Shown: one piece after another, positions 2,894 through 60,473 of the stretch
How the letters are laid out: the number at the start of each line of letters is the position of its first letter
Position numbering within the stretch: position 1 is the stretch's first letter
Origin: Bacillus niameyensis
GTDB taxonomy: Bacteria > Bacillota > Bacilli > Bacillales > Bacillaceae_C
Assembly (NCBI RefSeq): GCF_001375535.1
Contig: NZ_LN831197.1
Span: 3,104,383-3,168,382, forward strand
Direction: 5' to 3'
DNA length: 64,000 nucleotides
Position numbers and translations under genes: made by a program
Notes under the pieces: model-generated
What the model was told of the DNA's origin: nothing
Seen by the model: only the letters and a program-made list of their open reading frames with translations
Database searches by the model: none

Positions 2894-3997
2894 ATGAAGG
2901 TATTTGGCATTATCAATTTAATTAATGAAAAGCCATTTTTAAAAGAGTTGACGGCAAACCGTTGCTTGGCATCTGTACCATTTGCTGGGCGTTATCGATT
3001 AATAGATTTTACTTTGTCTAATTATATGCATGCTGGCATAAAGCAGGTAGCAGTTTTTACAAATAATAAATTCCGCTCGATTCTCGATCATCTCGGTTCT
3101 GGAAAGGAGTGGGACTTAGATAGAAGTCATGGCGGTCTATTTGTCCTTCCGCCTGCTCAGCCAGATGAACCGGCATGTGGAGACATTTCGGCCTTCCATG
3201 AATATTTTGATGTTTTAAAGCGGTCATCCGCAGATACTGTCGTCATTTCTCCGGGTTATCACGTAGGGAAAGTAGATTATCAGGATGTTATTCGCGAACA
3301 TGAAAGAAGTAAGGCCGATATAACGGTTCTTTATAAAGATTATAATGGATCACAGCTAAAAAAGCCGATCTACCATAAATGTATATTTCAAGATGATGGA
3401 CGGTTAATGAATATGGAACTATACACTGCACCTAAAGAAGGAGATCCTATATGTTTGGAAACATACATAATGAAGAAATCCTTATTTATGAACTTAGTTG
3501 AGAGTTGTTTTCGAAACCAGGAGTATGATTTTTTAAAGGATGCGATTAAGGCTAATCTTGATAGTTTACTTGTAAAAGGTTATTCGTTTCAGGGATATAT
3601 GCCCTTCATTCATTCAATCGAAAGCTATTATGAGAGTAATATGGAATTTTTAAATCCAGAAGTTATACGTTCCCATTACTACGATCAATGGGAAATTTGT
3701 ACGAAAGTAAAGCATGAAGCTCCAGCTAAGTACGGAGCAACCTCATCTGTATCAAATGCTTTTATCGCTAATGGCTGTGATATTCAAGGTACAGTTGAAA
3801 ATAGTATTTTATTCAGAGGTGTAAAGATCAAAAAGGGAGCGGTCGTGAAAAATAGCATCATTATGCAAAAGGGTGAAATTGAGGAAGATGTTTATCTTGA
3901 TCATGTCATTTCCGATAAGCAAGCACTATTTAAAGAGAAGTCCATTCTAATAGGTGAACAGCAGCCTAAAATAATTAAAAAGTCAGAAGTGATTTAA
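2894..3997 (+). CDS. glgD: GlgD, non-catalytic partner of ADP-glucose pyrophosphorylase
   Basis: A GlgC paralogue of 367 residues in the third operon position. It keeps the sugar-binding strand (FAGRYRLIDFTLSNYMHAG) and a C-terminal beta-helix. The glycine-rich nucleotide loop of GlgC ([10 protein letters not shown]) is absent: the N-terminus runs directly from FGIINLINEKPF to the Arg-rich strand. In Bacillus relatives GlgD enhances and regulates GlgC activity without being an efficient catalyst. The SD AAAGGAAAGGA precedes the ATG, 47 bp after glgC. Confidence 0.93.
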   Translation: MKVFGIINLINEKPFLKELTANRCLASVPFAGRYRLIDFTLSNYMHAGIKQVAVFTNNKFRSILDHLGSGKEWDLDRSHGGLFVLPPAQPDEPACGDISAFHEYFDVLKRSSADTVVISPGYHVGKVDYQDVIREHERSKADITVLYKDYNGSQLKKPIYHKCIFQDDGRLMNMELYTAPKEGDPICLETYIMKKSLFMNLVESCFRNQEYDFLKDAIKANLDSLLVKGYSFQGYMPFIHSIESYYESNMEFLNPEVIRSHYYDQWEICTKVKHEAPAKYGATSSVSNAFIANGCDIQGTVENSILFRGVKIKKGAVVKNSIIMQKGEIEEDVYLDHVISDKQALFKEKSILIGEQQPKIIKKSEVI

Positions 3998-21355: not shown

Positions 21356-21525
21356 AAGATAAACCTCATTTTCTTGAATTGGTATAAAGGAATTCTATAA
21401 GTTTATTGGGGGAAGGTCAAATAGGAAATTGGCGATTTGTGTCTGGTTTTGTCGAAAGGGTGAATGTAGTAGAAAAATGAGGGTATCCAGTCGGAAAATT
21501 TAAGTGCAAGCCAGGGGAAAATGAT

Positions 21526-21745
21526 CTTAAGTCCGAAGCCTGCGGAAAAGAACGAGGGATGGGCTATGAGAGGTGCTCTCAAGTCCCGAAGCTCGTGAAA
21601 AGAACGGGGAATGGGTCATGAGAGTAGTTGTCACGGCAGGAGTCCATCTTTTTTGCAGTAGAAGAGTCATGAGAAGCGATCGTATGACACATAGAAACCA
21701 ACTTAGACGAAGAATGCGCTATGAGAATTCATCTCATAGCGCACA
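21526..21745. repeat. degenerate 52-bp tandem repeats with ATGAGA core (4 units)
   Basis: Units begin at 21526, 21578, 21630 and 21682. The ATGAG core recurs at 21566, 21618, 21669 and 21721, spaced 52, 51 and 52 bp. The first two units share AAGTCC, GAAAAGAACG, ATGGG and ATGAGAG. A hairpin (TCCCG/CGGGGA) lies between cores of the second unit, and the last core sits in a perfect 11-bp inverted repeat (GCGCTATGAGA/TCTCATAGCGC, 21717-21743), possibly acting as terminator for the minus-strand gene that ends at 21768. Period and core match the array at 58.5 kb. Confidence 0.7.
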
Positions 21746-51580: not shown

Positions 51581-51601
51581 CATTAACGAAATGGAAATGA
51601 A

Positions 51602-51704
51602 TTATCTTTCAGAATGAAATCATTCTGTAGGAATTGGCACCTTCCTTGTTTTACAAGGGGTTGCCGGACGTCATAGGGCCTTTCCCTCAGTCTCTCTTGA
51701 TAAA
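51602..51704 (-). ncRNA. SAM-I (S-box) riboswitch aptamer
   Basis: Minus-strand sequence shows the S-box core in order: TTATCAAGAGAG, ACTGAGGGAAAGGCCCTATGA, CGTCCGGCAACC, AAGGTGCCAATTCC and the closing strand GATAA. With SAM bound the downstream terminator forms and metNPQ is off; in methionine or SAM shortage it is on. Confidence 0.95.
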
Positions 51705-51803
51705 ATCCATATTTAATTGAATTAGTATGAATCAAATCATACGTTAGTTTCTGATTCTTGTCAATTACCTTTTTAAAAATAATCTATACTAAGATAATAA
51801 TTG

Positions 51804-56755: not shown

Positions 56756-57646
56756 ATGCTTTTATCTGTAAACCAATTAACAAAGAAATATAAAAATCAA
56801 TTAGCTGTTGATGAACTGACACTGACAATTGAAGAAAATCAGTGTGTGGCGCTTTTGGGTCCTAATGGTTCGGGTAAAACTACGACGATCAATATGTTAG
56901 CGGGACTACTCACACCAACATCTGGGAAAGTGACTTTTTTAGGGGGGGCGAAGATCAATCGTCGCGAAATCGGTTATTTACCACAATATCCAGCCTTTTT
57001 CTCATGGATGACAGCAATAGAATATCTAAATTTCGCGGGAAAACTCTCAGGTCTATCTAAAAAGGAATTAAAGACAAAGTGTGAGGAAATGTTGACCTTC
57101 GTTGGATTGGAATCTGCGAAAAATAAGCAGATTGGCGGGTTTTCAGGTGGAATGAAACAAAGGCTTGGCCTAGCTCAGGCCATGCTGCATGATCCAAAAT
57201 TATTAATATTAGATGAACCTGTATCCGCACTTGATCCAGAAGGGCGCCGTGATGTACTAGATATTATGCAAAAGTTAAAAAAGAAAATGGCCATTCTATT
57301 TTCAACGCACGTTTTGCATGATGCTGAGCAAGTGTGCGATGAGATTATCATGCTGAAGGCAGGAAAAATAAAATGGTCGGGTAACCTTAGTGAGCTTCGG
57401 AAAGTGCATGGTGATGACACGATCATCCTTTCAACGGTAGAACCTTTTGAGAATTGGCTTCAATCTAAAAAGTATATTCGTGAATTCGACTTGCTTTCAC
57501 CAGTTTCAGCGGAGATAAAACTATTTGATGCTAGCGGGCGAAACCTCCTTCTCAAAGACTGTTTACAATGTAACAGGACAATCACGCGCTTTGAAGTGAA
57601 GAATTATTCATTGGAGGATGCCTATATGGAGGTTGTAAATCAATGA
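56756..57646 (+). CDS. yxlF: ABC transporter ATP-binding protein YxlF
   Basis: 296 residues from ATG 56756 (GGAGGAAG upstream; GTG 56741 is less likely). Walker A GPNGSGKTT, Q-loop YLPQYPAF, signature FSGGMKQRLGLAQA, Walker B LLILDEPVSALD, H-loop FSTHVL. Pairs with permease YxlG (4-bp ATGA overlap). The transporter is the effector part of the SigY regulon core; substrate unknown. Confidence 0.92.
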   Translation: MLLSVNQLTKKYKNQLAVDELTLTIEENQCVALLGPNGSGKTTTINMLAGLLTPTSGKVTFLGGAKINRREIGYLPQYPAFFSWMTAIEYLNFAGKLSGLSKKELKTKCEEMLTFVGLESAKNKQIGGFSGGMKQRLGLAQAMLHDPKLLILDEPVSALDPEGRRDVLDIMQKLKKKMAILFSTHVLHDAEQVCDEIIMLKAGKIKWSGNLSELRKVHGDDTIILSTVEPFENWLQSKKYIREFDLLSPVSAEIKLFDASGRNLLLKDCLQCNRTITRFEVKNYSLEDAYMEVVNQ

Positions 57647-58419
57647 ACGTATTTATGACGTTGTTTAAGAAAGAATTACAAGAGGCATGGCGGGACAAGA
57701 AGCTTATTTGGCTTCCTATTGTTATTAGTATTCTTGCTATCTCTCAACCGATTAGCCAATACTATATGCCACAAATCCTAGAGATGGCAGGCGGTCTACC
57801 AGACGGAACGGTTATAGAAATTCCAACACCATCTGGAGCGGAAGTACTAGCAGGAGTGCTCAGCCAACTTGGGATCATGGGAACGGCTATCTTTGTTTTA
57901 AGTGTGATGGGAAGTATTGCCCACGAAAGAAATAGTGGGGCTCTCTCCCTTGTGATGGCGCGTCCTGTTCAAGCATTTCAGTATATAGGAAGCAAATGGG
58001 CCGCTAATGCAGTTATCCTCTTACTTTCTTTTGTTATCGGTTTTGGACTTTGCTATTATTATACGAATTTACTTTTTAGCCATGTGGAGGCCAAGCTGTT
58101 TTTTGGTAGTATGGCTGTGTATAGTATTTGGATACTATTTATTTTAGCAGTTACACTACTTGGAGGAACACTATTTAAAAAGATTGGCGGCATAGCGGGA
58201 GCAAGCCTTGTAACGTTGGCCTTTATAGCACTATGTGGATCATTATTTCCTAAATTTATGGGATGGAGCCCTGCGAACGCTCAAAGTCAAGCTAGCCATT
58301 ATTTGATAATGGGGTCATGGGGGGATTCATTTTCAGTCATGATCATTTCAAGTGTGCTTCTTCTTATATCCTTGTTCTTATTAACTACTTTTTTATTTAA
58401 GCGCTATGAAAATTATTAA
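57643..58419 (+). CDS. yxlG: ABC transporter permease YxlG
   Basis: 258 residues, ABC-2 type permease with six transmembrane segments (about 19-36, 77-95, 109-131, 139-165, 172-190, 225-250). The N-terminal FKKELQEAWRDKKLIWLPIV is the usual ABC-2 start. Last gene of the sigY operon. The 52-bp repeat array begins 48 bp after it. Confidence 0.9.
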   Translation: MNVFMTLFKKELQEAWRDKKLIWLPIVISILAISQPISQYYMPQILEMAGGLPDGTVIEIPTPSGAEVLAGVLSQLGIMGTAIFVLSVMGSIAHERNSGALSLVMARPVQAFQYIGSKWAANAVILLLSFVIGFGLCYYYTNLLFSHVEAKLFFGSMAVYSIWILFILAVTLLGGTLFKKIGGIAGASLVTLAFIALCGSLFPKFMGWSPANAQSQASHYLIMGSWGDSFSVMIISSVLLLISLFLLTTFLFKRYENY

Positions 58420-58467
58420 TAACGTATGAAAGACTCGGCGATTTAAAAGATGCAACTTAAAGCTAAT

Positions 58468-58888
58468 CGTTACCGTTTTACGTGAGGGCATGGCATGGCG
58501 GTAACGCATCAAGTCGAATCGTTACCGTTTTACATGAGAGCACGACAAAACGGTAACGAATCAGAGCAAATCGTTACCGTTTTATATGAGAGTACGTCAA
58601 GGCGGTAACGAATCAGAGCAAATCGTTACCGTTTTACATGAGATCACGTCAAGACGGTAACGAATCAGAGCGAATCGTTACCGTTTTACATGAGATCACG
58701 TCAAGACGGTAACGAATCAGAGCAAATCGTTACCGTTTTATATGAGAGTACGTCAAGGCGGTAACGCATCAAGTCGAATCGTTACCGTTTTACATGAGAG
58801 CACGACAAAACGGTAACGATTTACAGCTAATCGTTACCGTTTCTCATATGGGCGCCACATAGCGGTCACGATACACGGCGATCGTGAC
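58468..58888. repeat. 52-bp tandem repeat array, eight units, hairpin-forming
   Basis: CGTTACCG starts at 58468, 58520, 58572, 58624, 58676, 58728, 58780 and 58832, exactly 52 bp apart. Each unit holds CGTTACCGTTTT, an ATGAGA core, and CGGTAACG. CGGTAACG of one unit can pair with CGTTACCG of the next across 12-13 nt, giving seven stems, and an eighth variant pair follows (GTCACGAT / ATCGTGAC, 58865-58888). Unit variants recur in mosaic order (58572 and 58728 share one central variant, 58520 and 58780 another). No open frame spans the array. It lies between the convergent yxlG and MFS genes. Confidence 0.92.
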
Positions 58889-58903: not shown

Positions 58904-60070
58904 TTATACGGTTTGTGTCTTTTTCAAAGTTAATCTATAAACCTGATACAAAGCAAATGCGATAATAGACAAGATTAACCCGGAAATATAAGGCAATCCC
59001 GTAGCGATTTTAAATAACCAGCCACCTAGGGGGGGACCGACAATTCTGCCCATTGAATCAAATGATGATAAGAGGCCTGTCGTGCTTCCGTGCCCCGCTG
59101 TTGAAGTTTTCGTTAATAACGCGGATACACTTGGACGAATAACGCCATTTCCGATTCCGAAAATCGTTAGAAATATTGCTGCTGTAGTAAAGTTGTTAAC
59201 TAGTAAAATTAAGCCAAACCCGATAGCCGAAATCGCGATTCCAATTTGAATGACGAATCCCTCGCCATATTTTTTCGTCAATTTCCCAACTAAACCACCT
59301 TGCACAATGGCTCCAGCTAGTCCCATAATCATAAATAAATATCCGAGTTCGACTGTTCCTAAGCCAGCTCTTTTTGCAGCAAAATAAGCAAATGTTGCCT
59401 CAAGACCAGCAAGTGATAAGGAAACAAATAACTGAAGAAAATAGAGAATGGAGATAGGACCATTCATAGCTTTGAACATCGGTTCCTTTTTCTTCGATTG
59501 TGCACCTCTCTTCTCAGATGGCAAAGATTCACGAAGGATGGTCATGACAAGGAAAAAAGTAATGATAGAAGAAATACCAGCGATTATAAACGGCATACTT
59601 AAACTTGTTTTAGAGAAGATCCCGCCAATTGCAGGCCCTAAAATAAACCCTAAGCCAACCGATGCACCGACAACGCCCATTCCTTTTCCGCGATCTTCAG
59701 GTGACGTAATATCTGCTACATAGGCTGTAACTGTAGGCATATTGGCTGATGATAACAGGCCGCCAATGATTCTTGCAGCGAAAAGCATCCATAGCTCGGT
59801 AGCAAAAGCCATTAAGAAAAAGGAGATTGCCAGCCCGAAAATCCCAATCATAATGACAGGTTTTCTACCGATTCGATCAGAAATTCTCCCCCAAAAAGGC
59901 GAAAACAGCAGTTGCATTAGGGAGTAAACAGCCATTAATAGACCTAATTGAGTAGGAGATGCTCCCATTTCTTCAGCGTAAAATGGCAGGACGGGAATAA
60001 TAATACCAAATCCAACCATGACAAAAAACATAACAGCAAAAAGGACAGGTAATGCTTTTTTTGTGTCCAT
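58904..60070 (-). CDS. MFS drug:H+ antiporter (DHA1, TetA-like)
   Basis: 388 residues from ATG 60070 (CGGAGTGA upstream; the in-frame GTG four codons earlier is inside the SD). Twelve helices. Motif A GRISDRIGRKPV in loop 2-3 and the antiporter motif C GASVGLGFILGPAIGG in helix 5 place it in the 12-TM drug exporter group. Substrate not predictable. Convergent with yxlG across the repeat array. Confidence 0.9.
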   Translation of the reverse strand: MDTKKALPVLFAVMFFVMVGFGIIIPVLPFYAEEMGASPTQLGLLMAVYSLMQLLFSPFWGRISDRIGRKPVIMIGIFGLAISFFLMAFATELWMLFAARIIGGLLSSANMPTVTAYVADITSPEDRGKGMGVVGASVGLGFILGPAIGGIFSKTSLSMPFIIAGISSIITFFLVMTILRESLPSEKRGAQSKKKEPMFKAMNGPISILYFLQLFVSLSLAGLEATFAYFAAKRAGLGTVELGYLFMIMGLAGAIVQGGLVGKLTKKYGEGFVIQIGIAISAIGFGLILLVNNFTTAAIFLTIFGIGNGVIRPSVSALLTKTSTAGHGSTTGLLSSFDSMGRIVGPPLGGWLFKIATGLPYISGLILSIIAFALYQVYRLTLKKTQTV

Positions 60071-60226
60071 AGAAGTGTTCACTCCGGTCTATAAAAGATA
60101 TGATCATACTTTATTTGGATGGATAAAGAAAACTAACATAAAAATTTTACCACTCTAAGAAAGAATAACATAGTTAAAACATTTTATCCGAAGAATGATA
60201 TGGCAAATTATTGAAAAACATTATAT

Positions 60227-60268: not shown

Positions 60269-60324
60269 TATTGTTGACGAATATAGTTCTTTTATGCTAG
60301 ATTATAACTAACAAATAAACAATA

Positions 60325-60409
60325 AAGTTCATTGGATGTATATGCTTGGGAATATGGCCCGAACGTCTCTACCTGGTAACCGTAAATTACTAGACTACAT
60401 TAAGAACTT
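60325..60409 (+). ncRNA. purine riboswitch aptamer, guanine class
   Basis: Core elements in order: an outer AAGTTC/GAACTT stem, P1 ATGTA/TACAT, GGCCCGAACGTCTCTACCTGG, CCGTAAATTA and GACTACAT. The base equivalent to position 74 is C (60395), which selects guanine or hypoxanthine over adenine. Ligand binding should favour the terminator downstream. Confidence 0.93.
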
Positions 60410-60473
60410 GGAAATGCCGAGATAAGATGAGATCTGATCGATAGGTTAAATTTCCTTTATTCTTAAGTGTAGC

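Follow-up and report, generated by a model that had tools for sequence, protein, structure and literature searches.

The repeats considered here occupy positions 58466..58881 of the window, by which we mean the whole 64,000-nucleotide stretch of the Bacillus niameyensis genome that was analysed. They are intergenic, lying between gene ends at 58419 and 58904. On one side, a gene for an ABC-2 family transporter membrane protein (57643..58419, + strand) heads into the array; on the other, an MFS transporter gene (58904..60082, - strand) does the same. Given that the former ends at 58419 and the latter, on the opposite strand, at 58904, the flanking genes converge on the array, just as the first-pass annotation of this DNA had placed it. 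Searches with three neighbouring genes returned ABC-2, ABC ATPase, and MFS transporter. At the array, Rfam gave no family and only sub-threshold microRNA matches; elsewhere in the window, a SAM riboswitch (51599-51706, - strand) and a purine riboswitch (60316-60417, + strand) score above the Rfam cut-off. Eight tandem units of 52 bp, to which no strand is assigned, begin at 58466, 58518, 58570, 58622, 58674, 58726, 58778, and 58830. In unit 1, the left arm ATCGTTACCG (58466..58475, + strand) recurs each 52 bp, and the right arm CGGTAACG (58499..58506, + strand) has a core that begins 33 bp past the start of the left-arm core. The eight exactly spaced starts previously reported are borne out by the positions of CGTTACCG (58468, 58520, 58572, 58624, 58676, 58728, 58780, and 58832, all steps 52 bp), by TRF (period 52, 7.3 copies, score 536), and by a reversed-pattern control of the spaced array pattern, which gave 0 matches in the whole genome; the seven starts of CGGTAACG, from 58499 to 58811, keep the same step. 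Units 4 and 5 differ at 1 base in 52, units 3 and 6 share one spacer, and units 2 and 7 another; with spacers recurring between units, the mosaic order of variants noticed earlier is thus real. The hairpin loop running from CGGTAACG to the CGTTACCG that follows also exists, yet measures 13 nt instead of the approximately 12 nt claimed. The final arm pair, GTCACGAT ... ATCGTGAC (58863..58888, + strand), carries altered letters exactly as described; that it records a maintained stem was an interpretation, to which the wider family lends no support.

Related arrays and a shared dyad

Searching the genome and its relatives revealed similar arrays in both. The window array's class occupies ten more places in its own genome, at about 97, 1866, 2402, 2468, 2763, 2964, 3681-3691, 3933, 4107, and 4423 kb of contig 6. 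One array in this genome reaches about 132 copies (L024 9017-15866, L025 3069-3385) and displays a repeating five-unit (260-bp) order plus a run of N. Arrays of the same length and other sequence are found as well, for example 75 copies at 3404 kb, and the arm families of this unit length are ATCGTTACCG, CTATTCGCCC, and TCTCAAGTCC. A second period-52 array lies in the window itself (21525-21624, about 1.9 copies); its arms are different, with the consensus TCTCAAGTCC ... GGGCCATGAGAG, and AAAA lies at its centre. Other array classes in the same genomes likewise have different arms that are still able to pair, which either demands several specificities or favours a structure-based reading. In a census of tandem arrays (period at least 30, score at least 100), periods of 51-53 account for 11 of 18 arrays in 844 kb from three carriers (the window's own genome, G060, and G062), or 9 of 16 without the window. 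The corresponding figure is 0 of 7 for 20 further genomes of the genus and family, sampled over 400 kb and including at least one carrier. The arrays at L019, L023, L024, L025, and L035 are flanked by common sequence, 33 to 638 bp long and located at the repeat edge or beyond it; such sharing at several loci indicates copying of larger intergenic segments. The window's own genome also contains 207-208-bp tandem repeats in two places close together (L192 3002-3409 and 6144-6834).

An imperfect dyad, TCGT-KM-CC ... GG-KM-ACGA, is common to arrays of many Bacillaceae, its arms 33 and 19 bp apart and its spacers unrelated. The two-unit pattern GGNNAYGA-N11-TCRTNNCC-N25-GGNNAYGA-N11-TCRTNNCC, whose chance expectation we estimate well below one, matched at least 109 stretches, and all those listed carry Bacillales record names; the genera among the listed matches include Neobacillus, Cytobacillus, Mesobacillus, Sutcliffiella, Pseudalkalibacillus, Scopulibacillus, Salimicrobium, and Halalkalibacter. 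One record labelled Paenibacillus bovis (L066/L028) is a genome of the window's own genus, and the label looks wrong. L066 is the same record as L028, and L119 continues L105; with L028 and L119 left out of the counts and duplicates removed, 124 arrays from 36 genomes were available. The consensus of 96 arrays reads A-W-TCGT-KM-CC-K ... AAAA ... M-GG-KM-ACGA-W-T-A. Its core letters were fixed by the array search, and their invariance is therefore no evidence in itself; the search placed no such constraint on the A-tract, on the edge letters, or on the KM preference. Where arrays of the window's own genome were chosen by the left arm only, the right-arm core was present in 7 of 7 listed places, one unit having one change. 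A variable-gap search of five carriers on both strands gave at least 453 matches versus 7 in reversed controls, and 8 of the listed rows were seen by eye to depart from 52 bp, by 1 bp each; spacing outliers of 10-11 bp are present, too few to interpret. Exact-core arms in 1.24 Mb run from left to right at 33 bp in 14 of 19 cases, from two arrays including the window's. The spacers themselves drift: at homologous neighbours the arrays are retained, and 62 of 105 spacer letters are identical in array pairs, against 0.29 in random pairs, in a sample of seven hand-picked pairs with homologous neighbours on both sides (five) or one (two), after exclusion of pairs that lay in other gaps or had one gene far away; here, too, the arm core was set by the way the arrays had been found.

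Possible half-sites, gene gaps, and replication polarity

The altered final pair had been read as a compensatory change that preserves a stem. At the named pair this argument fails, given that the KM bases pair perfectly in 10 of 94 distinct arrays versus 25.1 expected by independence, and that core changes, although mirrored between the arms, are mostly one-sided, with 16 of 161 changed pairs compensated; we therefore reject a compensatory RNA stem at a position where the family avoids pairing. In the core, C>T (44) and G>A (50) changes are about equal, and thus give no sign of one-strand selection for wobble pairs. Edge pairs do co-vary, 11/35 being paired in 63 of 96 arrays versus 44.2 expected and 1/45 in 70 versus 54.2; cells changed on both sides number 66 versus 47.4 in shuffles, a type of count that relatedness inflates. 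Within arrays, pair 4/42 shows excess pairing in both pairings (65 vs. 53.7 and 41 vs. 25.7). Inverted half-sites under a symmetric protein could explain the edge and 4/42 excesses equally well. One classification covered 72 of the 96 arrays, one array-end count 116 of 127, and one further arm analysis 66 of 124 candidate units, with the arm core fixed by the search. Array runs go from left to right arm in 48 cases, in reverse in 16, and are mixed in 51 (n=115), which favours the 45-bp dyad as the unit. The short-loop hairpin as unit is weakened by these array ends, and within arrays neither pairing is clearly favoured. On balance, half-sites on double-stranded DNA account for the stem and core evidence better than an RNA stem does. 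Pointing the other way are the differing yet pairable arms of other array classes and of 16 of the 27 published families. At the end of another array (L021, about 4600), the final arm pair is altered on both sides, GGTCACTGTTC ... GAACAATGACC, and by eye this is a stronger candidate for compensation than the last pair of the window array.

Of 66 gaps that hold arrays, 37 are convergent and 1 is divergent; of 303 array-free gaps, 46 are convergent and 64 divergent. Directions were taken from a simple ORF caller, and a first convergent tally gave 31 of 49 versus 38 of 236. Of 14 further genomes of the genus with an MFS match, four retain, within the stretch inspected, an ABC-2 gene that converges on the MFS gene, and in these four sister species the same gap carries no array; three of the four gaps (L207-L210) show a hairpin by eye. 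Among genes beside arrays, none is recurrent beyond common transporters, and the largest neighbour cluster, with 11 loci, looks like ABC ATPases as read from sequence. A strong terminator finds no support in the T tails: those after the hairpin are weak, with means of 2.6 and 3.0 T of 8 in 814 units, and at least 6 T of 8 in 55 and 54 of them. A terminator scan found none in the window array, but its loops of 3-8 nt only would miss one of 13 nt. The lower count of canonical terminators elsewhere in array gaps (22 of 68 vs. 46 of 100) does not reach significance (p 0.08), and neither does a replacement of terminators. Several familiar kinds of repeat were set aside: an intrinsic terminator array, since the T run expected after a GC stem is weak; a CRISPR array, whose spacers would be unique whereas here they recur with units; and type III toxin-antitoxin RNA repeats, both window neighbours being transporters and no recurrent toxin-like neighbour appearing among the clusters.

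In most units the two arms differ, one carrying GC and the other TA, TC, or GA. GC and TA are each self-complementary; thus, the GC/TA order is free of base-composition bias. We took the strand with positive local GC skew as leading and scored whether the GC arm comes first; the requirement for usable skew and clear orientation kept, from 124 arrays, 80 for the arm measure, 92 for the A-tract measure, and 54 for the strict GC/TA subset. Judged by local skew, the GC arm precedes the other in 66 of 80 arrays (p 3e-9); with four of the chromosomes studied at length set aside, it does so in 48 of 60 (p 3e-6), and within the strict subset in 42 of 54 (p 5e-5). Counted per genome, the majority agrees in 27 of 32, with 2 ties and 3 against, and 67 of 92 arrays have their A-rich strand as the leading one, with 25 against. 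In longer sequences orientation was obtained from model R1 and skew samples, and 40 of 43 listed places in five genomes follow replication, some of them lying within a few kb of each other and perhaps being copies. These comprise 19 of 19 in Sutcliffiella halmapala (G062), 3 of 3 in G061 (one with the nearest sample weakly opposite in skew), 6 of 7 in G060, 5 of 5 in G160 (one with the nearest skew sample near zero), and 7 of 9 in the window's own genome, where the 2964-kb place was included, and the 2402-kb place and the window array, having no GC arm, were excluded. Three more places agree, at 549 and 2318 kb in G062 and at 14.5 kb in G060. The window array itself has TA/TA at the variable arm bases and lacks an A-tract; being symmetric, it carries no direction. 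Restricted to convergent gaps, the polarity weakens (19 with, 8 against) and, as gene direction is correlated with skew, transcription could still contribute as a cause.

Interpretation and comparison with known systems

Among the roles first proposed, we prefer that of a protein-binding array. Tentatively, and with somewhat less than even confidence, we read the class of the window array as a phased half-site array for a putative DNA-binding protein, acting as double-stranded DNA. Left arm, spacer, and right arm form an imperfect dyad some 45 bp long which, with a 7-bp link, makes up the unit of 52 bp, or about five helical turns; the centre of the spacer is marked in most relatives by the A-tract that the window array lacks. 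Each arm may represent a half-site, putative protein dimers would sit on the same helix face at every unit, and the array would nucleate a protein-DNA stretch in gaps where promoters are undisturbed. The two-base difference between the arms in most relatives gives the unit a direction and, because this direction mostly follows replication, the complex may be read, or tolerated, one way only. The anatomy, the shared motif, the gene context, and the polarity in relatives are observed, whereas the protein itself is inferred, as is whatever the arrays may do to replication, transcription, or the structure of the nucleoid. A bolder proposal, which we consider quite unlikely, makes the arrays a direction-sensing chromosome element: the putative protein would occupy the phased dyads, the GC/TA arm difference would make the complexes polar, and arrays would be kept only in an orientation that allows replication, or a DNA translocase, to pass from origin to terminus. 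If true, part of the Bacillaceae would have a polar system of its own, dispersed and built from arrays. A search for candidates among recurrent array neighbours yielded no binding protein. RTP was also rejected for that role, as it shows no correlation with the arrays, exceeding the cut-off in 1 of 9 carriers tested and scoring 21.7 bits in the window's own genome (cut-off 26.7). A weak RTP-like match (24.9 bits, below cut-off) lies near the inferred terminus of Sutcliffiella halmapala (G062:C1:2513120-2513434).

Other accounts share part of this evidence. Selfish or neutral satellites, in which a hairpin unit slips or is copied single-stranded on the lagging-strand template and persists where least harmful, have a minor though appreciable chance of being the answer. 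Such slippage or copying would give a replication-related orientation by itself, and the observed polarity agrees with this, as do the array of about 132 copies with its five-unit order, the copies with shared flanks at several loci, the patchy distribution of the motif (5 of 150 genomes of the order and 4 of 83 genera, under strict filters by which weak matches are lost), and the array-free gaps of the four sister species. Yet slippage alone fixes neither a period of about 52 with unrelated spacers nor the same arms across genera, 1.24 Mb of sequence contains no solitary class-1 unit with an exact core, and Y1 transposase genes, with RAYT subgroups pooled, do not appear to track arrays: Y1_Tnp is present in each of the 9 carriers and also in 6 of 7 other genomes, 15 of 16 in total. 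Alternatively, the arrays might act as RNA, flanking transcripts folding into hairpin chains that stop or stabilize 3' ends or yield small RNAs. Although the window array folds far better than shuffles (z -11.4 and -11.0 on the two strands), convergent 3' ends are preferred, edge pairs and 4/42 pair in excess, the arms of other families differ yet pair, and B. coagulans repeats are transcribed and appear in RNA-seq (PMC8625621), we regard this as unlikely: perfect pairing is avoided at the KM bases, changes in the core fall mostly on one side and show no wobble bias, T tails are weak and canonical terminators in the gap not significantly rarer, no Rfam family was found at the array, and an exact 52-bp period is not required by RNA. 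The half-site reading has in its turn to be set against REP/RAYT-type systems, in which palindromic repeats are spread by a domesticated Y1 transposase. REP/REPIN elements with RAYT are extragenic imperfect palindromes with an internal mismatch, and the arrays resemble them in this and in the several arm classes per genome; they differ, however, in their head-to-tail tandem order with fixed period, in a consensus without the GTAG head that is a REP feature, in showing no linked transposase and no correlation with Y1_Tnp taken as a whole, and in that dispersed single palindromes were not seen among exact-core class-1 units. Such an origin is very improbable.

The window array is a member of a published class, the constant-length 52-nt tandem repeats of Bacillus, whose role was left unexplained (Subirana and Messeguer 2021; PMC8161180). 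That study, which covered 176 genomes, reports such repeats in roughly 30% of its Bacillus species and a length of 51-53 nt for 1886 of 4029 repeats, and it suggests two roles, a protein polymerizing on DNA or small RNAs (PMC8161180); an earlier survey gives other Bacillus repeat lengths (PMC6749651). The window array agrees with the class in length and copy number (51-53 nt and at least 4 copies; here period 52 and eight units) and in its non-coding, intergenic position, its own genome has several sequence families of one length, and its inverted arms recall the short signals that, with their reverse, often occur in one published repeat. It departs from the class in one respect: the published repeats are described as species-specific and without sequence conservation between species, whereas the arms here are common to many genera; this absence is a description and not a defining feature. 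Inverted arms of differing sequence are significant in 16 of 27 published families and not in the other 11; they are not universal, L058 and L116 also being without significant ones. Because the 52-nt class is already in print, novelty is limited to three features, namely the dyad common to the arrays, their preference for convergent gaps, and their replication polarity, which are new to the literature as far as our searches show: the main text of PMC8161180 makes no mention of a shared dyad, gene-context bias, or replication polarity, and a literature search on the orientation of 52-nt repeats found no paper. Since 2020-2021 these repeats have stood in print as an enigma, fixed in length and variable in sequence; the dyad, the fixed arm spacing, the gap preference, and the orientation make their role testable, by asking whether a protein binds the arms and what effect the reversal of an array has.

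Two polar systems offer further parallels to phased half-sites with a direction. The RTP-Ter terminators of Bacillus subtilis are imperfect dyads with unequal halves and act directionally. The arrays are alike in being imperfect dyads whose differing halves give direction, but they are spread over the chromosome, and in arrays. The KOPS and SRS octamers, for FtsK and SpoIIIE, are oriented along replication, and the orientation of the arrays follows replication as well; yet where those are short single octamers, the elements described here are arrays of dyads placed in gene gaps.
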